In this document: positions 921-5,466 of the stretch, one piece after another
Numbering within the stretch: position 1 is the first letter of the stretch
Layout of the letters: each line of letters starts with the position of its first letter
Source of the DNA: a bacterium
GTDB taxonomy: Bacteria > NPL-UPA2 > JAGMAN01
NCBI GenBank assembly: GCA_023130215.1
Contig: JAGMAN010000063.1
Span: 1-5,466, forward strand
DNA: 5,466 nucleotides
Reading direction: 5' to 3'
The notes under the pieces: generated by a model
Seen by the model: the letters and a program-made list of their open reading frames with translations, nothing else
Database searches by the model: none
Told to the model about the DNA's origin: nothing
Program-made: the position numbers and the translations under genes

Positions 921-1955
921 CGAAACTGAATTTAATTGCAGAGCTAACCTTATGGCTTGTTTAAGACTTTGGGGATTGGCTGTCCCCTTTCCTGCCTGAT
1001 CGAAGGCCACTCCATGGTCAACTGAAGTGCGGATGATGGGTAGGCCTAAAGTAACGTTTACTCCACTGATGGAAGTCCACCTCTCACCACCTTCCTTATC
1101 ATAGATGAATCCGGCCACTTTCATGGCAATGTGTCCCTGGTCGTGGTACATGGCTACGGCCAGGTCATATTGACCCCCTCGGGTTTTAGAGAAGATGGTG
1201 TCTGGCGGAATGGGACCTTCAGCTACAATTCCTTCTTTCCTGGCTAACTGAATGGCTGGAGTTATCTCCTCTATCTCCTCCCGACCAAATAGTCCTCCTT
1301 CGCCGGCATGAGGATTCAATCCAGCTACGGCAATCTTTGGGTTCTCTATTCCCAGCCTCTTCACCGCTTCATTGCCCAACCTGATCACCGTCAATATTCT
1401 ATCCCGTCTTACTTCTTCGCAGGCCCGCTTCAGAGAAAGGTGGCAGGAGACATGAGCTATACGGAAATCCTCGTCAACAAGCATTAAAGCGTAGTCTTTG
1501 CTGCCGCAGAGCTCAGCCAGAAGCTCGGTATGCCCAGGATAATTGAAGCCAGCTCTAACTATAGCTTCCTTGTGAATGGGACCGGTAACTATGGCTTGAA
1601 TCTCATCGTCTTGCGCTAAGGCAACTGCTCTTTTAATATACTCTATGGCGGCCCGGCCACATTCCTCATCCACCTGACCGAAGTTAACAGAGTCCGCTTC
1701 AATGTTATCTAAATTCAGGAGATCAATCGTCCCGTATTCACCTTTAGCTTCTCCTATTTCCTTAACGCAATTAATCTCCAGATCATTTTTGTTTATGAGA
1801 TTGACAGCTCTTCTCAGGACTGTCTCTTCACCAATCACCACCGGAACCGAAACCTGGTAGAATTCCTCGTCAGAAAGTGCCTTGACGGCAATCTCCGGCC
1901 CCACTCCCGCCGGATCACCCATAGTAATTCCAACAGTTGCTTTATTTCTTGACAA
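915..1955 (-). CDS. PdxA-family 4-phospho-hydroxyacid dehydrogenase, PdxA2-like
   Basis: At 346 residues this is a full-length member of the NAD-dependent PdxA family, which oxidises the 3-hydroxyl of a four-carbon acid 4-phosphate, followed by decarboxylation. Visible family motifs are ITMGDPAGVGPE (10-21), VTGPIHKEA (123-131), YPGHTE (139-144), LNPHAGEGG (213-221), MYHDQG (269-274) and GLPIIRTSVDHG (304-315). The likely metal-binding histidines are H172, H216 and H271. The segment after MYHDQG reads HIAMKVAGF, followed by about 12 extra residues before GVNVTLG. Classical PdxA has LPVLK and a short link there. From memory, the HI form belongs to PdxA2-type enzymes acting on D-threonate or D-erythronate 4-phosphate, so I withhold the symbol pdxA. 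The start is TTG at 1955. A TAG lies three codons upstream in frame, and the next ATG (codon 12) would delete the first strand. It is the last gene of the operon and overlaps the preceding gene by 14 nt. Confidence 0.88.
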   Translation of the reverse strand: MSRNKATVGITMGDPAGVGPEIAVKALSDEEFYQVSVPVVIGEETVLRRAVNLINKNDLEINCVKEIGEAKGEYGTIDLLNLDNIEADSVNFGQVDEECGRAAIEYIKRAVALAQDDEIQAIVTGPIHKEAIVRAGFNYPGHTELLAELCGSKDYALMLVDEDFRIAHVSCHLSLKRACEEVRRDRILTVIRLGNEAVKRLGIENPKIAVAGLNPHAGEGGLFGREEIEEITPAIQLARKEGIVAEGPIPPDTIFSKTRGGQYDLAVAMYHDQGHIAMKVAGFIYDKEGGERWTSISGVNVTLGLPIIRTSVDHGVAFDQAGKGTANPQSLKQAIRLALQLNSVSP

Positions 1956-2880
1956 CTTCCTCTACCGCTTTTATGATATCATCTTCGGTCAGACCGAATT
2001 CTCTGAACAGTTCCCCGGGGTCTCCTGATTCTCCAAAACGGTCTTTGATGGCTATCATCCTCATGGGCACTGGTTCATTCTCCACAATTACCTCGGCTAC
2101 CGCACTTCCCAGCCCGCCTTTAGACATATGCTCTTCAGCGGTGACGATAGCCCTTGTCTCCCGGGCCGCCTTAATGATAAGCTGCTCATCAATTGGCTTA
2201 ATAGTAGAAATATTGATTACCCGGCAGTTGGTCCCTCCTCTGACCCTCAGTTTCTGTGCTGCCTCTAAGGCTTTCTCCACCATAATCCCACAGGCAATGA
2301 TAGTAGCATCGCTGCCGTCAATTAGAACCTTTCCCTTTCCTATCTCGAAGTCTTCATCCTCATTCAAAATTATCGGCACCTTGGCCCTTCCCAGGCGAAT
2401 ATAAACTGGCCCTTTCATGGCAGCCGCAGTCATCACTGCTTTCCCCGTCTCCACTGCATCGCAGGGAACGATAACGGTCATATTGGCAATCGTTCTCATC
2501 AGGGAGATATCCTCAATGCATTGGTGGGAGGAACCATCAGCACCAACGGAAATACCTGCGTGCGTAGCTACAATCTTAACATTGAGGTTGGAATAGCAGA
2601 TGGTATTTCTTATCTGTTCCCAGGCTCGTCCCGAGGCGAAGATGGCGAAAGTAGAAGCAAAGGGAATCTTTCCGCAAGTGGCCAGTCCTGCCGCAGTTCC
2701 CATCATATCCTGTTCCGATATTCCCATCTGAAAAAATCTCTCCGGAAATTTCTTGGCGAAATCATGTGTCTTGGTTGATTTGGAGAGATCTGCATCCAGG
2801 ACAACCACATCTTTATCTATCTCGCCTAATCGGACCAGCGTTTTCCCGTAAGCATCCCGGGTAGCAATCATTTCAGTCAT
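1942..2880 (-). CDS. Transketolase, C-terminal subunit
   Basis: This 312-residue protein carries the pyrimidine-binding and C-terminal domains of transketolase, the half that completes the TPP site in a split enzyme. GISEQDM (53-59) contains the glutamate (E56) that activates the TPP aminopyrimidine. FAIFASGRAWEQIR (78-91) and THAGISVGADGSSHQ (106-120) are standard for the Pyr domain. The C-terminal domain follows from about residue 185, ending with RFGESGDPGEL (281-291). Transketolase moves two-carbon ketol units between pentose, triose and erythrose phosphates. ATG at 2880 overlaps the TGA of the N-subunit gene by one base, and a GGAGGA site sits 9 nt upstream. Translation of the two halves is therefore probably coupled, giving equal amounts. 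Length is usual for separate C-subunits (about 300-320). A DXP-synthase-like or sulfo-sugar transketolase specificity cannot be excluded by eye. Confidence 0.94.
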   Translation of the reverse strand: MTEMIATRDAYGKTLVRLGEIDKDVVVLDADLSKSTKTHDFAKKFPERFFQMGISEQDMMGTAAGLATCGKIPFASTFAIFASGRAWEQIRNTICYSNLNVKIVATHAGISVGADGSSHQCIEDISLMRTIANMTVIVPCDAVETGKAVMTAAAMKGPVYIRLGRAKVPIILNEDEDFEIGKGKVLIDGSDATIIACGIMVEKALEAAQKLRVRGGTNCRVINISTIKPIDEQLIIKAARETRAIVTAEEHMSKGGLGSAVAEVIVENEPVPMRMIAIKDRFGESGDPGELFREFGLTEDDIIKAVEEVVKK

Positions 2881-3710
2881 CAGGATAGTTCCTCCAGGGC
2901 TTGTCTGGTCTGCTCTTTGGTAGGGGCTTTACCGTGGAAATCAACTACATTCTCCATAAAGGAGACACCTTTTCCTTTTATGGTATGGGCAATGATAATG
3001 GTTGGTTTCCCTTTTATTTTCTTTGCTTCCTCGAAGGCTCTGAGAATTTCTTCAAAATTATGTCCATCAATTTCCATAGTATTCCAGCGGAAGGCAGTCC
3101 ATTTTTCTCTGATGGGATTTGAGTTCATAACTTCCACAATCGGCCCATCTATCTGAAGTCCGTTGAAGTCAAGGATAGCACACAGATTATCCAATTTATA
3201 ATGAGCCGCCGTCATAGCCGCTTCCCAGATCTGCCCTTCCTCAATCTCTCCGTCTCCTAAAAGGGCATAGACCCTGTAATCTTTCCCATCCAGTTTTCCA
3301 GCCATGGCCATACCATTAGCAACAGAGAGGCCTTGCCCTAAGGAACCGCTGGAAATTTCTACTCCCGGCGGGCTTCCTATCTTAGGGTGCCCCTGAAGAC
3401 GACTGCCAAATTTTCTCAAGCTCATCAATTCATCTTTTGGGAAATATCCTCTCTCTGCCAGAGCAGAATAAAGCAGGGGAGCAGCGTGCCCCTTGCTCAG
3501 AACAAACCTATCCCGGTCCTCCCGGCGAGGATTCTTATGGTCAATATTGAGAACAGAAAAATAAAGGGCAGTGACAATGTCAGCGGCTGAAAGGGAACCT
3601 CCCGGATGTCCCGAACCAGCCTCACCTAACATAGCAATAATGTCTCTGCGGATCTCAGTGGCCTTTACCTGTAATTTCTCTATGCTCATTTGCTCTTCTA
3701 AACCAAACAT
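2880..3710 (-). CDS. Transketolase, N-terminal subunit
   Basis: This 276-residue protein is the TPP diphosphate-binding half of a two-subunit transketolase. The diphosphate/Mg motif GDGE begins at residue 152 and ends with N183 in DFNG, the expected GDG-x(about 28)-N spacing. SGHPGGSLS (33-41), LSKGHAAPLLY (71-81), LQGHPK (105-110) and SSGSLGQGLS (120-129) are the usual substrate and cofactor contacts. With the C-subunit it should form a heterotetramer active in the non-oxidative pentose phosphate pathway. The sequence ends at LEELS, just after the domain, so this is a natural split gene and not a broken one. The start is uncertain. ATG at 3710 lies 4 bp after the cysE stop but has no nearby Shine-Dalgarno. 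ATG at 3689 (residue 8, MSIEKLQ) has AGAAGAG just upstream and matches the usual family start better. Confidence 0.93.
   Translation of the reverse strand: MFGLEEQMSIEKLQVKATEIRRDIIAMLGEAGSGHPGGSLSAADIVTALYFSVLNIDHKNPRREDRDRFVLSKGHAAPLLYSALAERGYFPKDELMSLRKFGSRLQGHPKIGSPPGVEISSGSLGQGLSVANGMAMAGKLDGKDYRVYALLGDGEIEEGQIWEAAMTAAHYKLDNLCAILDFNGLQIDGPIVEVMNSNPIREKWTAFRWNTMEIDGHNFEEILRAFEEAKKIKGKPTIIIAHTIKGKGVSFMENVVDFHGKAPTKEQTRQALEELS
2890..2895 (-). promoter_or_regulatory. Shine-Dalgarno for the transketolase C-subunit
   Basis: GGAGGA on the - strand lies 9 nt before the ATG at 2880, inside the end of the N-subunit coding sequence. Together with the TGATG stop/start overlap it supports the chosen start and re-initiation by the same ribosomes. 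Confidence 0.72.
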
Positions 3711-3714
3711 GAGA

Positions 3715-4419
3715 CTACTGTTTTCTCCACTTGATCAGTTCCCTCTCCATCTCGTCAATGTGGTGCTGTAACTCCTCCAACCTTTCAGCTAAAGGGTCAG
3801 GGAGGCGGGTATGGTCTAAACTGATTCCCGGGACTTTTTCCCCTTTTCGCTTAGCTATCCTTCCGGGGATGCCCACCACAGTGCAGTCAGGTGGAACGGA
3901 ACGGATGACCACGGCATTGGCTCCCACCTGGACGTTATCGCCAATAGTGATGTTTCCCAAAATCTTCGCTCCTGCTCCCACCACAACATTATTTCCCAGG
4001 GTGGGATGACGCTTCCCCCTCTCCTTGCCCGTTCCTCCCAGGGTCACTCCCTGGAAGAGGGTGACATTGTCACCCAAGACAGAAGTCTCACCAATAACCA
4101 CTCCCATCCCGTGGTCAATGAAGAGTCCCTTCCCTATCTTTGCTCCCGGATGGATTTCCATTCCAGTTATATGACGGGCCAGTTGGGAGAGAAGGCGGGG
4201 GAAGAAGGGAATTTTCATCTTTAAGAGAGCATGGGCAGTGCGGTGAAAGATGATAGCATGGAGTCCAGAGTAAGTGAGAACAACCTCCCAGCAACTGACA
4301 GCAGCAGGGTCTCTCTCAAAGCAGGCTCTCACCTCATGGCGGAAGATAGTAGCGATGAGGAGAAATTTGAGGAGTCCCAGACCAATTAAACCCAATATTA
4401 TGTAAAGAGCAATAAGCAT
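3715..4419 (-). CDS. cysE: Serine O-acetyltransferase with an N-terminal hydrophobic segment
   Basis: The 234-residue protein transfers acetyl from acetyl-CoA to L-serine, making the O-acetylserine used for cysteine synthesis. The core from about residue 30 (CFERDPAAVSCWEVVLTYSGLHAI) follows the Gram-positive CysE/EpsC pattern. A left-handed beta-helix of hexapeptide repeats follows (88-185), with IDHGMGVVIGET (101-112) carrying the catalytic D-H pair, then GVTLGGTGKERGKRHPT (124-140) and VVGIPGR (181-187). The last 30 residues are charged and coiled-coil-like. Residues 1-26 (from MLIALYIILG) are almost entirely hydrophobic and are missing from most relatives, so the enzyme may be anchored to the membrane. 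ATG at 4419 has AAAGGGG 12 nt upstream. A GTG at codon 30 has no ribosome site, so the long form is preferred. It is first in the operon, 4 bp from the transketolase N-subunit gene. Confidence 0.94.
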   Translation of the reverse strand: MLIALYIILGLIGLGLLKFLLIATIFRHEVRACFERDPAAVSCWEVVLTYSGLHAIIFHRTAHALLKMKIPFFPRLLSQLARHITGMEIHPGAKIGKGLFIDHGMGVVIGETSVLGDNVTLFQGVTLGGTGKERGKRHPTLGNNVVVGAGAKILGNITIGDNVQVGANAVVIRSVPPDCTVVGIPGRIAKRKGEKVPGISLDHTRLPDPLAERLEELQHHIDEMERELIKWRKQ

Positions 4420-4777: not shown

Positions 4778-4806
4778 TTGACAAAGATAACAGTATATGG
4801 TATATT
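4778..4806 (+). promoter_or_regulatory. Strong sigma70-type promoter of the lysine-rich protein
   Basis: A consensus TTGACA (4778-4783), a 17-nt spacer, then TATATT (4801-4806, 5 of 6 to TATAAT). Transcription should begin near 4813, giving a leader of about 60 nt. An ATTTGCAAAT palindrome (4765-4774) lies 3 bp upstream of the -35. A 7-bp inverted repeat, TTCCAAC/GTTGGAA (4806-4812, 4837-4843), spans the start site and could be an operator. Confidence 0.85.
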
Positions 4807-4855
4807 TCCAACAAATGACCACAATGTATTGTTTAAGTTGGAATTTAAGAACTGG

Positions 4856-4865
4856 AAGGAGGTGA
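4856..4865 (+). promoter_or_regulatory. Ten-base perfect Shine-Dalgarno
   Basis: AAGGAGGTGA is the exact complement of the conserved 16S rRNA 3' tail (UCACCUCCUU) and lies 9 nt before the ATG at 4875. It fixes the start of the lysine-rich gene and predicts very efficient initiation. It is the strongest ribosome site in the window. Confidence 0.88.
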
Positions 4866-4874
4866 GTTTATCCT

Positions 4875-4982
4875 ATGGCCGTTAAGAAGAAGAAAAAGAA
4901 AGTAGCCAAGAAGAAAGCCAAAGGCAAGGCCAAGAAAACCACCAAGAAGAAAGCCAAGGCTAAGAAGAAAAAAAGAAGATAG
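4875..4982 (+). CDS. 35-residue lysine-rich polycationic protein (histone-H1-tail-like)
   Basis: ATG at 4875 opens a 35-codon frame ending in TAG (4980-4982). The product has 21 lysines, 2 arginines, 6 alanines, 2 valines, 2 threonines, 1 glycine and the initiator methionine. It has no acidic, aromatic or cysteine residues, so net charge is about +23. It begins MAVKKKKKKVAKKKAKGKAK and ends KKKKRR, and KKKA/KAK units recur as in histone H1 tails and bacterial H1-like proteins. Such tails are disordered and bind nucleic acid. A nucleoid, RNA or ribosome-binding role is inference, and I recognise no named family. It is clearly a gene: a near-consensus promoter, perfect Shine-Dalgarno and strong terminator frame it as a single-gene unit. 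Lysine is encoded by both AAG and AAA, so the tract is not a simple DNA repeat. Similar small K/A-rich proteins are often missed because of length cut-offs. Confidence 0.85.
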   Translation: MAVKKKKKKVAKKKAKGKAKKTTKKKAKAKKKKRR

Positions 4983-4998
4983 GGATCTTATCCTCTGC

Positions 4999-5039
4999 GG
5001 CCCTCGTAAGCTGAATTCTTGCGAGGGCCTCTCTTTTTA
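4999..5039 (+). terminator. Rho-independent terminator of the lysine-rich gene
   Basis: GGCCCTCGTAAG (4999-5010) pairs with CTTGCGAGGGCC (5018-5029): twelve pairs with one T-G wobble, closing a 7-nt loop. TCTCTTTTT follows. It begins 16 bp after the stop codon. It works in the + direction only, since the - strand has no T run after the stem. Its T-tract reaches the TAA stop of the convergent ispF (5037-5039). Confidence 0.92.
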
Positions 5040-5466
5040 TCTCAGTGTTGCCACTGCATAAGCGGCCATTCCTTCTTCCCTTCCAGTGAAAGTAAGACCC
5101 TCGGTGGTAGTTGCTTTTACATTTACTGCCTTCTTGTCCATCTGCAGAGCCCGGGCAATCCGCTCCCTCATCGCTTCAAAGTAAGGAGCTAACTTCGGTC
5201 TTTCAGCAACAACCACTGCATCAATATTATTAACGATAATTTTTTCTTCGCTCAGAATGTCCCCGACTTTCTCCAAAAGGATGAGGCTGGAGATGCCTTC
5301 ATATTGAGGATCGTCATCGGGGAAATGCCGGCCAATGTCTCCCTTAGCCGCTCCGCCCAGAAGAGCATCCGAGATAGCGTGAAGCAGGACATCGGCATCG
5401 GAGTGCCCGGCCAATCCCTTAGAGAAAGGAATCTCTACCCCTCCTAAAAGGAGTTTCCTTCCTTCC
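5037..5466 (-). CDS. ispF: 2-C-methyl-D-erythritol 2,4-cyclodiphosphate synthase, 5' end outside window
   Basis: This MEP-pathway enzyme converts CDP-ME 2-phosphate to the cyclic diphosphate, releasing CMP, on the route to IPP and DMAPP. In frame from 5465 to the TAA at 5037-5039 there are 142 residues. They begin EGRKLLLGGVEIPFSKGLAGH, so the coding frame clearly continues upstream of the TTG at 5414, and only about 15 N-terminal residues are missing. Visible motifs are GHSDADVLLHAISDALLGGA (zinc-binding histidine in LLHAI), GDIGRHFPDDDP and NVKATTTEGLTFTGREEGMA (CDP-binding threonines and C-terminal signature). The missing N-terminus would carry the other two zinc ligands (the GHGFDVH motif). 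The gene converges on the lysine-rich gene, and its stop lies in that gene's terminator T-tract. ispD is often adjacent upstream, but that side is outside the window. Confidence 0.95.
   Translation of the reverse strand, partial: EGRKLLLGGVEIPFSKGLAGHSDADVLLHAISDALLGGAAKGDIGRHFPDDDPQYEGISSLILLEKVGDILSEEKIIVNNIDAVVVAERPKLAPYFEAMRERIARALQMDKKAVNVKATTTEGLTFTGREEGMAAYAVATLR

Follow-up and report, generated by a model that had tools for sequence, protein, structure and literature searches.

A probable gene for a free-standing, histone H1 tail-like polycation in a candidate division NPL-UPA2 bacterium

Introduction

Can a reading frame of 35 codons, most of them for lysine, be a gene in its own right, and what would its product do in the cell? 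The question is raised by an unannotated intergenic locus in a 1.01-Mb, 90% complete genome from an uncultured member of candidate division NPL-UPA2, of which one whole contig (G000:C97) makes up the stretch of DNA analysed here (the window; 5,466 nt). A first-pass annotation of the window had read the frame as a stand-alone, tail-only polycation gene with strong expression signals, likened its product to a histone H1 tail, and treated it as a lone oddity. If micro-ORFs of this sort are translated at the level that their signals suggest, part of the nucleoid charge balance would be carried by proteins that escape gene callers (being too short), similarity searches and trypsin-based proteomics alike. 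The tail-only form also offers a direct test of whether an H1-type tail needs an anchoring domain in order to work; the bacterial origin proposed for H1 raises this question (Kasinsky et al. 2001, as cited in PMC9239181 and PMC10919886).

Locus architecture and the leader alternative

The frame (positions 4875 to 4982, + strand) is preceded by a sigma-70-type promoter (4778 to 4806, +) composed of TTGACA (4778 to 4783), a 17-nt spacer and TATATT (4801 to 4806), the last preceded by TGG, making an extended −10. A 5′ untranslated region (5′ UTR; 4807 to 4855, +; total length before the ATG about 60 nt) leads to the Shine-Dalgarno (SD) sequence AAGGAGGTGA (4856 to 4865, +), and behind the frame lies an intrinsic terminator (4999 to 5038, +) with a 12-bp stem and a 7-nt loop (stem-loop 4999 to 5029; T tract to about 5039), the hairpin of which folds at −24.7 kcal/mol (z = −5.0). 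The −35 element, spacer, −10, 10-nt SD and 12-bp terminator are all present where they had been annotated. The SD is indeed perfect, but calling its spacing ideal was generous, as the ATG lies 9 nt after AAGGAGGTGA and 12 nt after GGAGG. Exact copies of AAGGAGGTGA number nine in the genome, this one included, and elsewhere also precede a CspA-like cold-shock gene and a second lysine-tailed gene discussed below. A further perfect AAGGAGGTGA stands before a GTG-started 129-aa protein (L112, position 1519, +; G000:C48 of the same genome), the start of which is VAKKKEERPEVYFMTEDVKRFWDGAVRRLKRLGDEAG (VAKKKEE).

Both neighbors are on the − strand: divergent cysE (serine O-acetyltransferase; 3715 to 4419; TIGR01172, 239.7 bits, over cut-off) and convergent ispF (2-C-methyl-D-erythritol 2,4-cyclodiphosphate synthase; 5037 to 5465, truncated by the contig end; PF02542, E = 3.7e-59; TIGR00151, over cut-off). 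The polylysine frame shares an operon with neither, and neither offers a hint of its function. A monocistronic gene for a free-standing polycation would be the best explanation of the locus. Elsewhere in the window (1942 to 3710, −), the N- and C-terminal parts of transketolase are encoded by two genes (276 and 312 aa) with pdxA after them, a common arrangement.

A short lysine-rich ORF followed by a terminator could also be a regulatory leader, such as a lysine-supply sensor, in which translation controls transcription termination and the product itself matters little; one study (PMC9207662) describes slowed translation on cationic peptide sequences. This reading is disfavored because no + strand gene lies downstream, ispF being on the opposite strand. 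Folding of the 5′ UTR does not exceed what chance would give (z = +0.75), selection acts on the amino acids across the whole ORF (see below), and similar tail-only ORFs elsewhere share no obvious downstream lysine gene. We regard a leader as very improbable.

Properties of the predicted protein

The product, MAVKKKKKKVAKKKAKGKAKKTTKKKAKAKKKKRR (4.04 kDa), comprises 21 Lys, 6 Ala, 2 Arg, 2 Val, 2 Thr, 1 Gly and 1 Met. With no acidic residue its formal charge is +23, the value first annotated for these 35 residues, and its computed charge at pH 7 is +22.5. This is the composition of a lysine/alanine-rich basic tail of the histone H1 type (proline being absent), and it suggests a disordered chain; no folded domain was recognized. 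Neither Pfam (E ≤ 1) nor NCBIfam (E ≤ 10) returned any family, which includes the Hc1/Hc2 profile and the ribosomal protein families in both databases and, in Pfam, the linker-histone winged-helix globular domain and the HU/IHF Bac_DNA_binding fold, and nothing was matched among PHROGs or PDB sequences; profile and sequence negatives say little for so lysine-heavy a composition.

Being short and highly cationic, the protein might be taken for a secreted antimicrobial or toxin-like peptide. However, it has no hydrophobic face, its sequence shows no hydrophobic signal peptide that would direct export, and no processing or immunity gene lies nearby, the neighbors being housekeeping genes; similar tails elsewhere are fused to intracellular domains. 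We consider this reading extremely improbable.

Conservation and selection within the genus

Counted across the window, the expression signals are no more frequent than chance (promoter-like matches, 8 versus 7.0 ± 2.9 in shuffles; terminator-like matches, 5 versus 6.6), so it is their arrangement and conservation, not their number, that makes them convincing. This chance-level frequency, together with the purine richness that lysine codons have in common with SD sequences and a scrambled-SD control that also yielded matches in viral contigs (see below), would favor a chance purine-rich ORF and no gene at all. Of 2,000 random sequences drawn from a first-order model of the intergenic region, none contained a K/R-rich ORF of at least 30 codons.

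Against a chance ORF stands the congener L003/G001, in which promoter, SD, frame and terminator stem are all kept in the same place. The two promoters are identical at 32 of 34 bases over CTTGACA...TATATTTYCA, GGAAGGAGGTGA at the SD is unchanged, and the terminator stem is identical with a diverged loop; the 5′ UTR has drifted, with small indels. Within the ORF, 7 of 10 substitutions are synonymous (2 to 3 expected) and the single indel, of 9 nt, is in frame. The dN/dS ratio is about 0.1 to 0.17 (P = 0.0007 to 0.008 depending on the transition bias assumed), from one genome pair and ten substitutions, a small sample with a clear direction. The pattern is one of protein-level purifying selection across the whole ORF. 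Conservation of the unit, the synonymous bias and the in-frame indel together argue that the ORF is very probably a real, translated gene, and the signals first annotated for a stand-alone polycation gene are borne out in a relative. Set against the same evidence, and against a genome survey in which scrambling or reversing the search pattern removed nearly all matches (see below), a chance ORF is highly unlikely.

Compared over its best segment, the window cysE shares 95% identity with the gene of candidate division NPL-UPA2 MAG-914; its identity to the L003/G001 gene is 92%. The MAGs L003 and L004 bear the name Nitrospirota in their GenBank titles, yet they fall with the NPL-UPA2 genome in one genus and one order, respectively. 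The annotation had raised the prospect that relatives might keep the transcript and lose the frame. The congener keeps both; the order-level relative (L004/G003) has only a shorter frame, MAIKKAGKKITKKTTKKKVTKRR, of 23 aa in the ispF-cysE slot, with a poor SD and weaker signals. Out-of-frame K-rich codons run on past its stop, and the frame may have been shortened by a one-base indel, either genuine or introduced in assembly. G002, of the same genus, has a 23-aa relative elsewhere in its genome (L153, G002:C3; tail-only MAAKKKAKKKATKKKAKKRGCCQ), equipped with TTGACA-17-TATTTT, an SD and a hairpin resembling a terminator. The gene downstream of it is deoxyhypusine synthase-like (PF01916, E = 2.6e-98); that an enzyme of lysine-modifying type adjoins a polylysine protein may be fortuitous. 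The DNA patterns used returned no tail-only ORF from G004 to G008, and not every genome of the phylum has the gene. DNA patterns were used for relatives because protein search is blind to such sequence: a plain protein search of 60 relatives returned only the own genome and missed the congener G001, which has the gene, the low-complexity sequence probably being lost in the first look of the search.

Tail-only reading frames across bacteria and phages

To establish how widely such genes occur, 386 genomes were searched for GGAGG-N4-12-ATG followed by codons of MAxKKxxKK. Matches were found in 21 genomes, compared with 2 for a scrambled SD (GAGAG) and 0 for the reversed pattern, so the SD is enriched before MAxKKxxKK starts. 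Tail-only ORFs of 15 to 39 aa account for 13 of the 21 (three in the window genus, ten in ten other families); the others are two longer K/A/V tails without a recognized domain (57 and 61 aa), two proteins with a SWIB domain (SWIB/MDM2; L156 and L160), one with a CxxxTxxGxxC...CxxH motif (L152/L140) and three other proteins. One tail-only ORF, MAVKKKKKKVAKKKAKKKAKKKKK in L161, is nearly like the window protein. Some have promoters matching 10-11/12 (L144, L153 and L158) and some have downstream hairpins (L150, L151 and L153). The window protein shares the traits of this recurrent class (whole ORF K-rich, own strong SD, no other domain), and its earlier treatment as a lone oddity can be set aside. 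The low complexity of these sequences does not let common descent be told from convergence. A strict lysine-codon pattern without the SD returned only A-rich noise. Small K-rich proteins of the form CAAKTAAGKRCK...GKSKFCxxHKKK, zinc-knuckle-like and weakly similar to the GvpO N-terminal and HGG_STG models, stand behind strong SDs in L140/L152 (G006) and L141 (2180 to 2278, −; G008).

Viral contigs gave at least 120 pattern matches, and 28 of the 80 that were read are tail-only; as the scrambled-SD control gave 73, SD enrichment is at the least harder to show there, and the set needs careful reading. Reading frames of 20 to 25 aa like MAKKKKAKKKNKKKNKKKKKR follow an SD, in many similar copies, in phage contigs L208, L214, L218, L220, L231, L233, L244, L250, L259, L265, L269, L272 and L277. 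The small viral contigs with tail-only ORFs were considered as microviruses, which have small basic packaging proteins, and this was set aside since their lengths and largest ORFs resemble fragments of larger phages.

Association with the YLYF motif family

The second K-tailed gene of the genome, behind the same AAGGAGGTGA, encodes MAEKVAKVGVRKVSGYLYFVDKAGDISRAKMARGGKKKKKKAKKKKAKKRRR (L114, 1333 to 1491, −; G000:C56). It belongs to a family with one or two copies per protein of the motif GYLYFxDKxGDxxRAKMARGG (YLYF) and a lysine-rich tail, which in the longest case exceeds 100 residues (L195). A YLYF profile matched 8 of 9 phylum genomes and 28 of 290 genomes overall (loci L114, L141, L147, L161 and L174 to L197); the YLYF protein itself matched no NCBIfam family and, above cut-off, no Pfam family. 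In three genomes (G220, G074 and G079) the YLYF gene has a tail-only ORF immediately upstream, and in the first two an HTH_17 gene precedes both. At L147 (1249 to 1596) and L161 (1232 to 1549), in two genomes of different families, the HTH_17 gene stands just ahead of the tail-only ORF, with a slight overlap, and the YLYF gene comes after. Tail and YLYF motif thus occur fused, adjacent or apart.

Predicted function

We infer high abundance, nucleic-acid binding, a preference for DNA over RNA, and compaction. The suggestion of the first-pass annotation that the mRNA would rank among the most abundant in the cell stands as a prediction. In the reading that we prefer, to which we assign a probability of roughly 0.5, the product would be a free H1-tail-like polycation that condenses nucleic acid. 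It would bind electrostatically, without sequence specificity, neutralize phosphate charge and help compact the nucleoid as do the C-terminal tails of proteins resembling histone H1, acting alongside HU and the YLYF protein of the same genome, in which a like tail is joined to a small conserved motif. Of the 9 phylum genomes, 8 have HU, the own genome included, and a K tail is lacking from the HU proteins that were read. Elsewhere, nucleoid compaction depends on the disordered H1-like tail of MDP1, and the tail alone has limited DNA affinity in vitro (PMC5974015); fragments of the KPAA tail of AlgP bind DNA (PMC9239181), and DNA binding by small basic proteins is exemplified by ScvA and Hq1 (PMC4766238). 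The likeness to an H1 tail first proposed for this product was apt, because similar tails are fused elsewhere to chromatin-type or other small domains.

The main rival casts the product as a polycation associated with RNA or ribosomes, either a small accessory protein of the ribosome or an RNA chaperone, neutralizing rRNA or mRNA. Small basic accessory ribosomal proteins exist, and the charge, the small size and an SD of CspA-class strength would equally fit an abundant RNA binder; because a polycation binds RNA as well as DNA, neither composition nor sequence separates this role from one in the nucleoid. On the other side, there is no Pfam or NCBIfam match, so it is no known ribosomal protein; like tails are fused to SWIB, which points to chromatin; and a patchy, rearranged distribution would be odd for a ribosomal protein. 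We consider an RNA or ribosomal role unlikely, if still to be reckoned with, and DNA the more likely target of the polycation.

The product might instead be a counter-ion for another polyanion, such as polyphosphate, an option listed in the first-pass annotation, or a cell-surface polymer, in the manner of AlgP, which has an H1-like tail and sits on polyphosphate granules (PMC9239181). Polyphosphate is disfavored, as a search for PPK1 found it in none of nine phylum genomes (0/9; positive controls detected), and a surface role finds no visible hydrophobic signal peptide; a polyanion other than nucleic acid is accordingly an improbable partner.

More broadly, bacteria may use free polycation tails to neutralize or compact nucleic acid. 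A wider proposal, which is possible but which we hold as doubtful, is that bacteria and many phages have an overlooked class of genes whose product is solely a detached H1-type tail of 15 to 40 aa. Bacterial free tails would then work in trans with anchor proteins bearing the same tail (YLYF, SWIB or zinc-knuckle-like) as a two-part chromatin or nucleic-acid-condensing system, missed by gene callers and tryptic proteomics.

Comparison with known systems

Lysine-rich, H1-like bacterial tails are an already known kind. In the literature searched (most subscription journals being outside its scope), we found no description of a whole protein that is only a tail of 15 to 40 aa, recurs across families and sometimes lies beside an unnamed motif family; the main text of the NPL-UPA2 transcriptome paper (PMC6305446) is silent on histone, nucleoid, hypothetical and highly expressed proteins. 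The C-terminal tail of H1, the KPAA tail of AlgP/PhaF and the tail of mycobacterial MDP1/HupB are likewise disordered, lysine/alanine-rich and expected to bind nucleic acid non-specifically. Unlike these, the window protein is all tail, with no proline, 60% lysine, 35 aa and no anchoring domain.

Chlamydial Hc2 (HctB) is comparable as a lysine-rich protein that binds DNA, stands alone and lacks an H1-type globular domain. Hc2 differs in its 165 to 237 aa of lysine-rich pentamer repeats (PMC2848022), and the window protein has no Pfam match. In addition, expression of the window gene looks constitutive, unlike the developmental expression of Hc2. The Coxiella proteins ScvA and Hq1 are likewise small and basic, and bind DNA; ScvA is about as long as the window protein. 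A point of difference is the enrichment of ScvA and Hq1 in the small-cell developmental form of Coxiella (PMC4766238). The YLYF proteins have a like K-rich tail and, in the own genome, the same SD, and their gene adjoins tail-only ORFs in three other genomes; they differ in having, once or twice, a conserved motif of ~35 residues, which is missing from the window protein. The SWIB/MDM2 proteins, finally, differ in their folded SWIB domain and share with the tail-only proteins a lysine-rich N-terminus, MAKKKxxKKK, behind a GGAGG SD.
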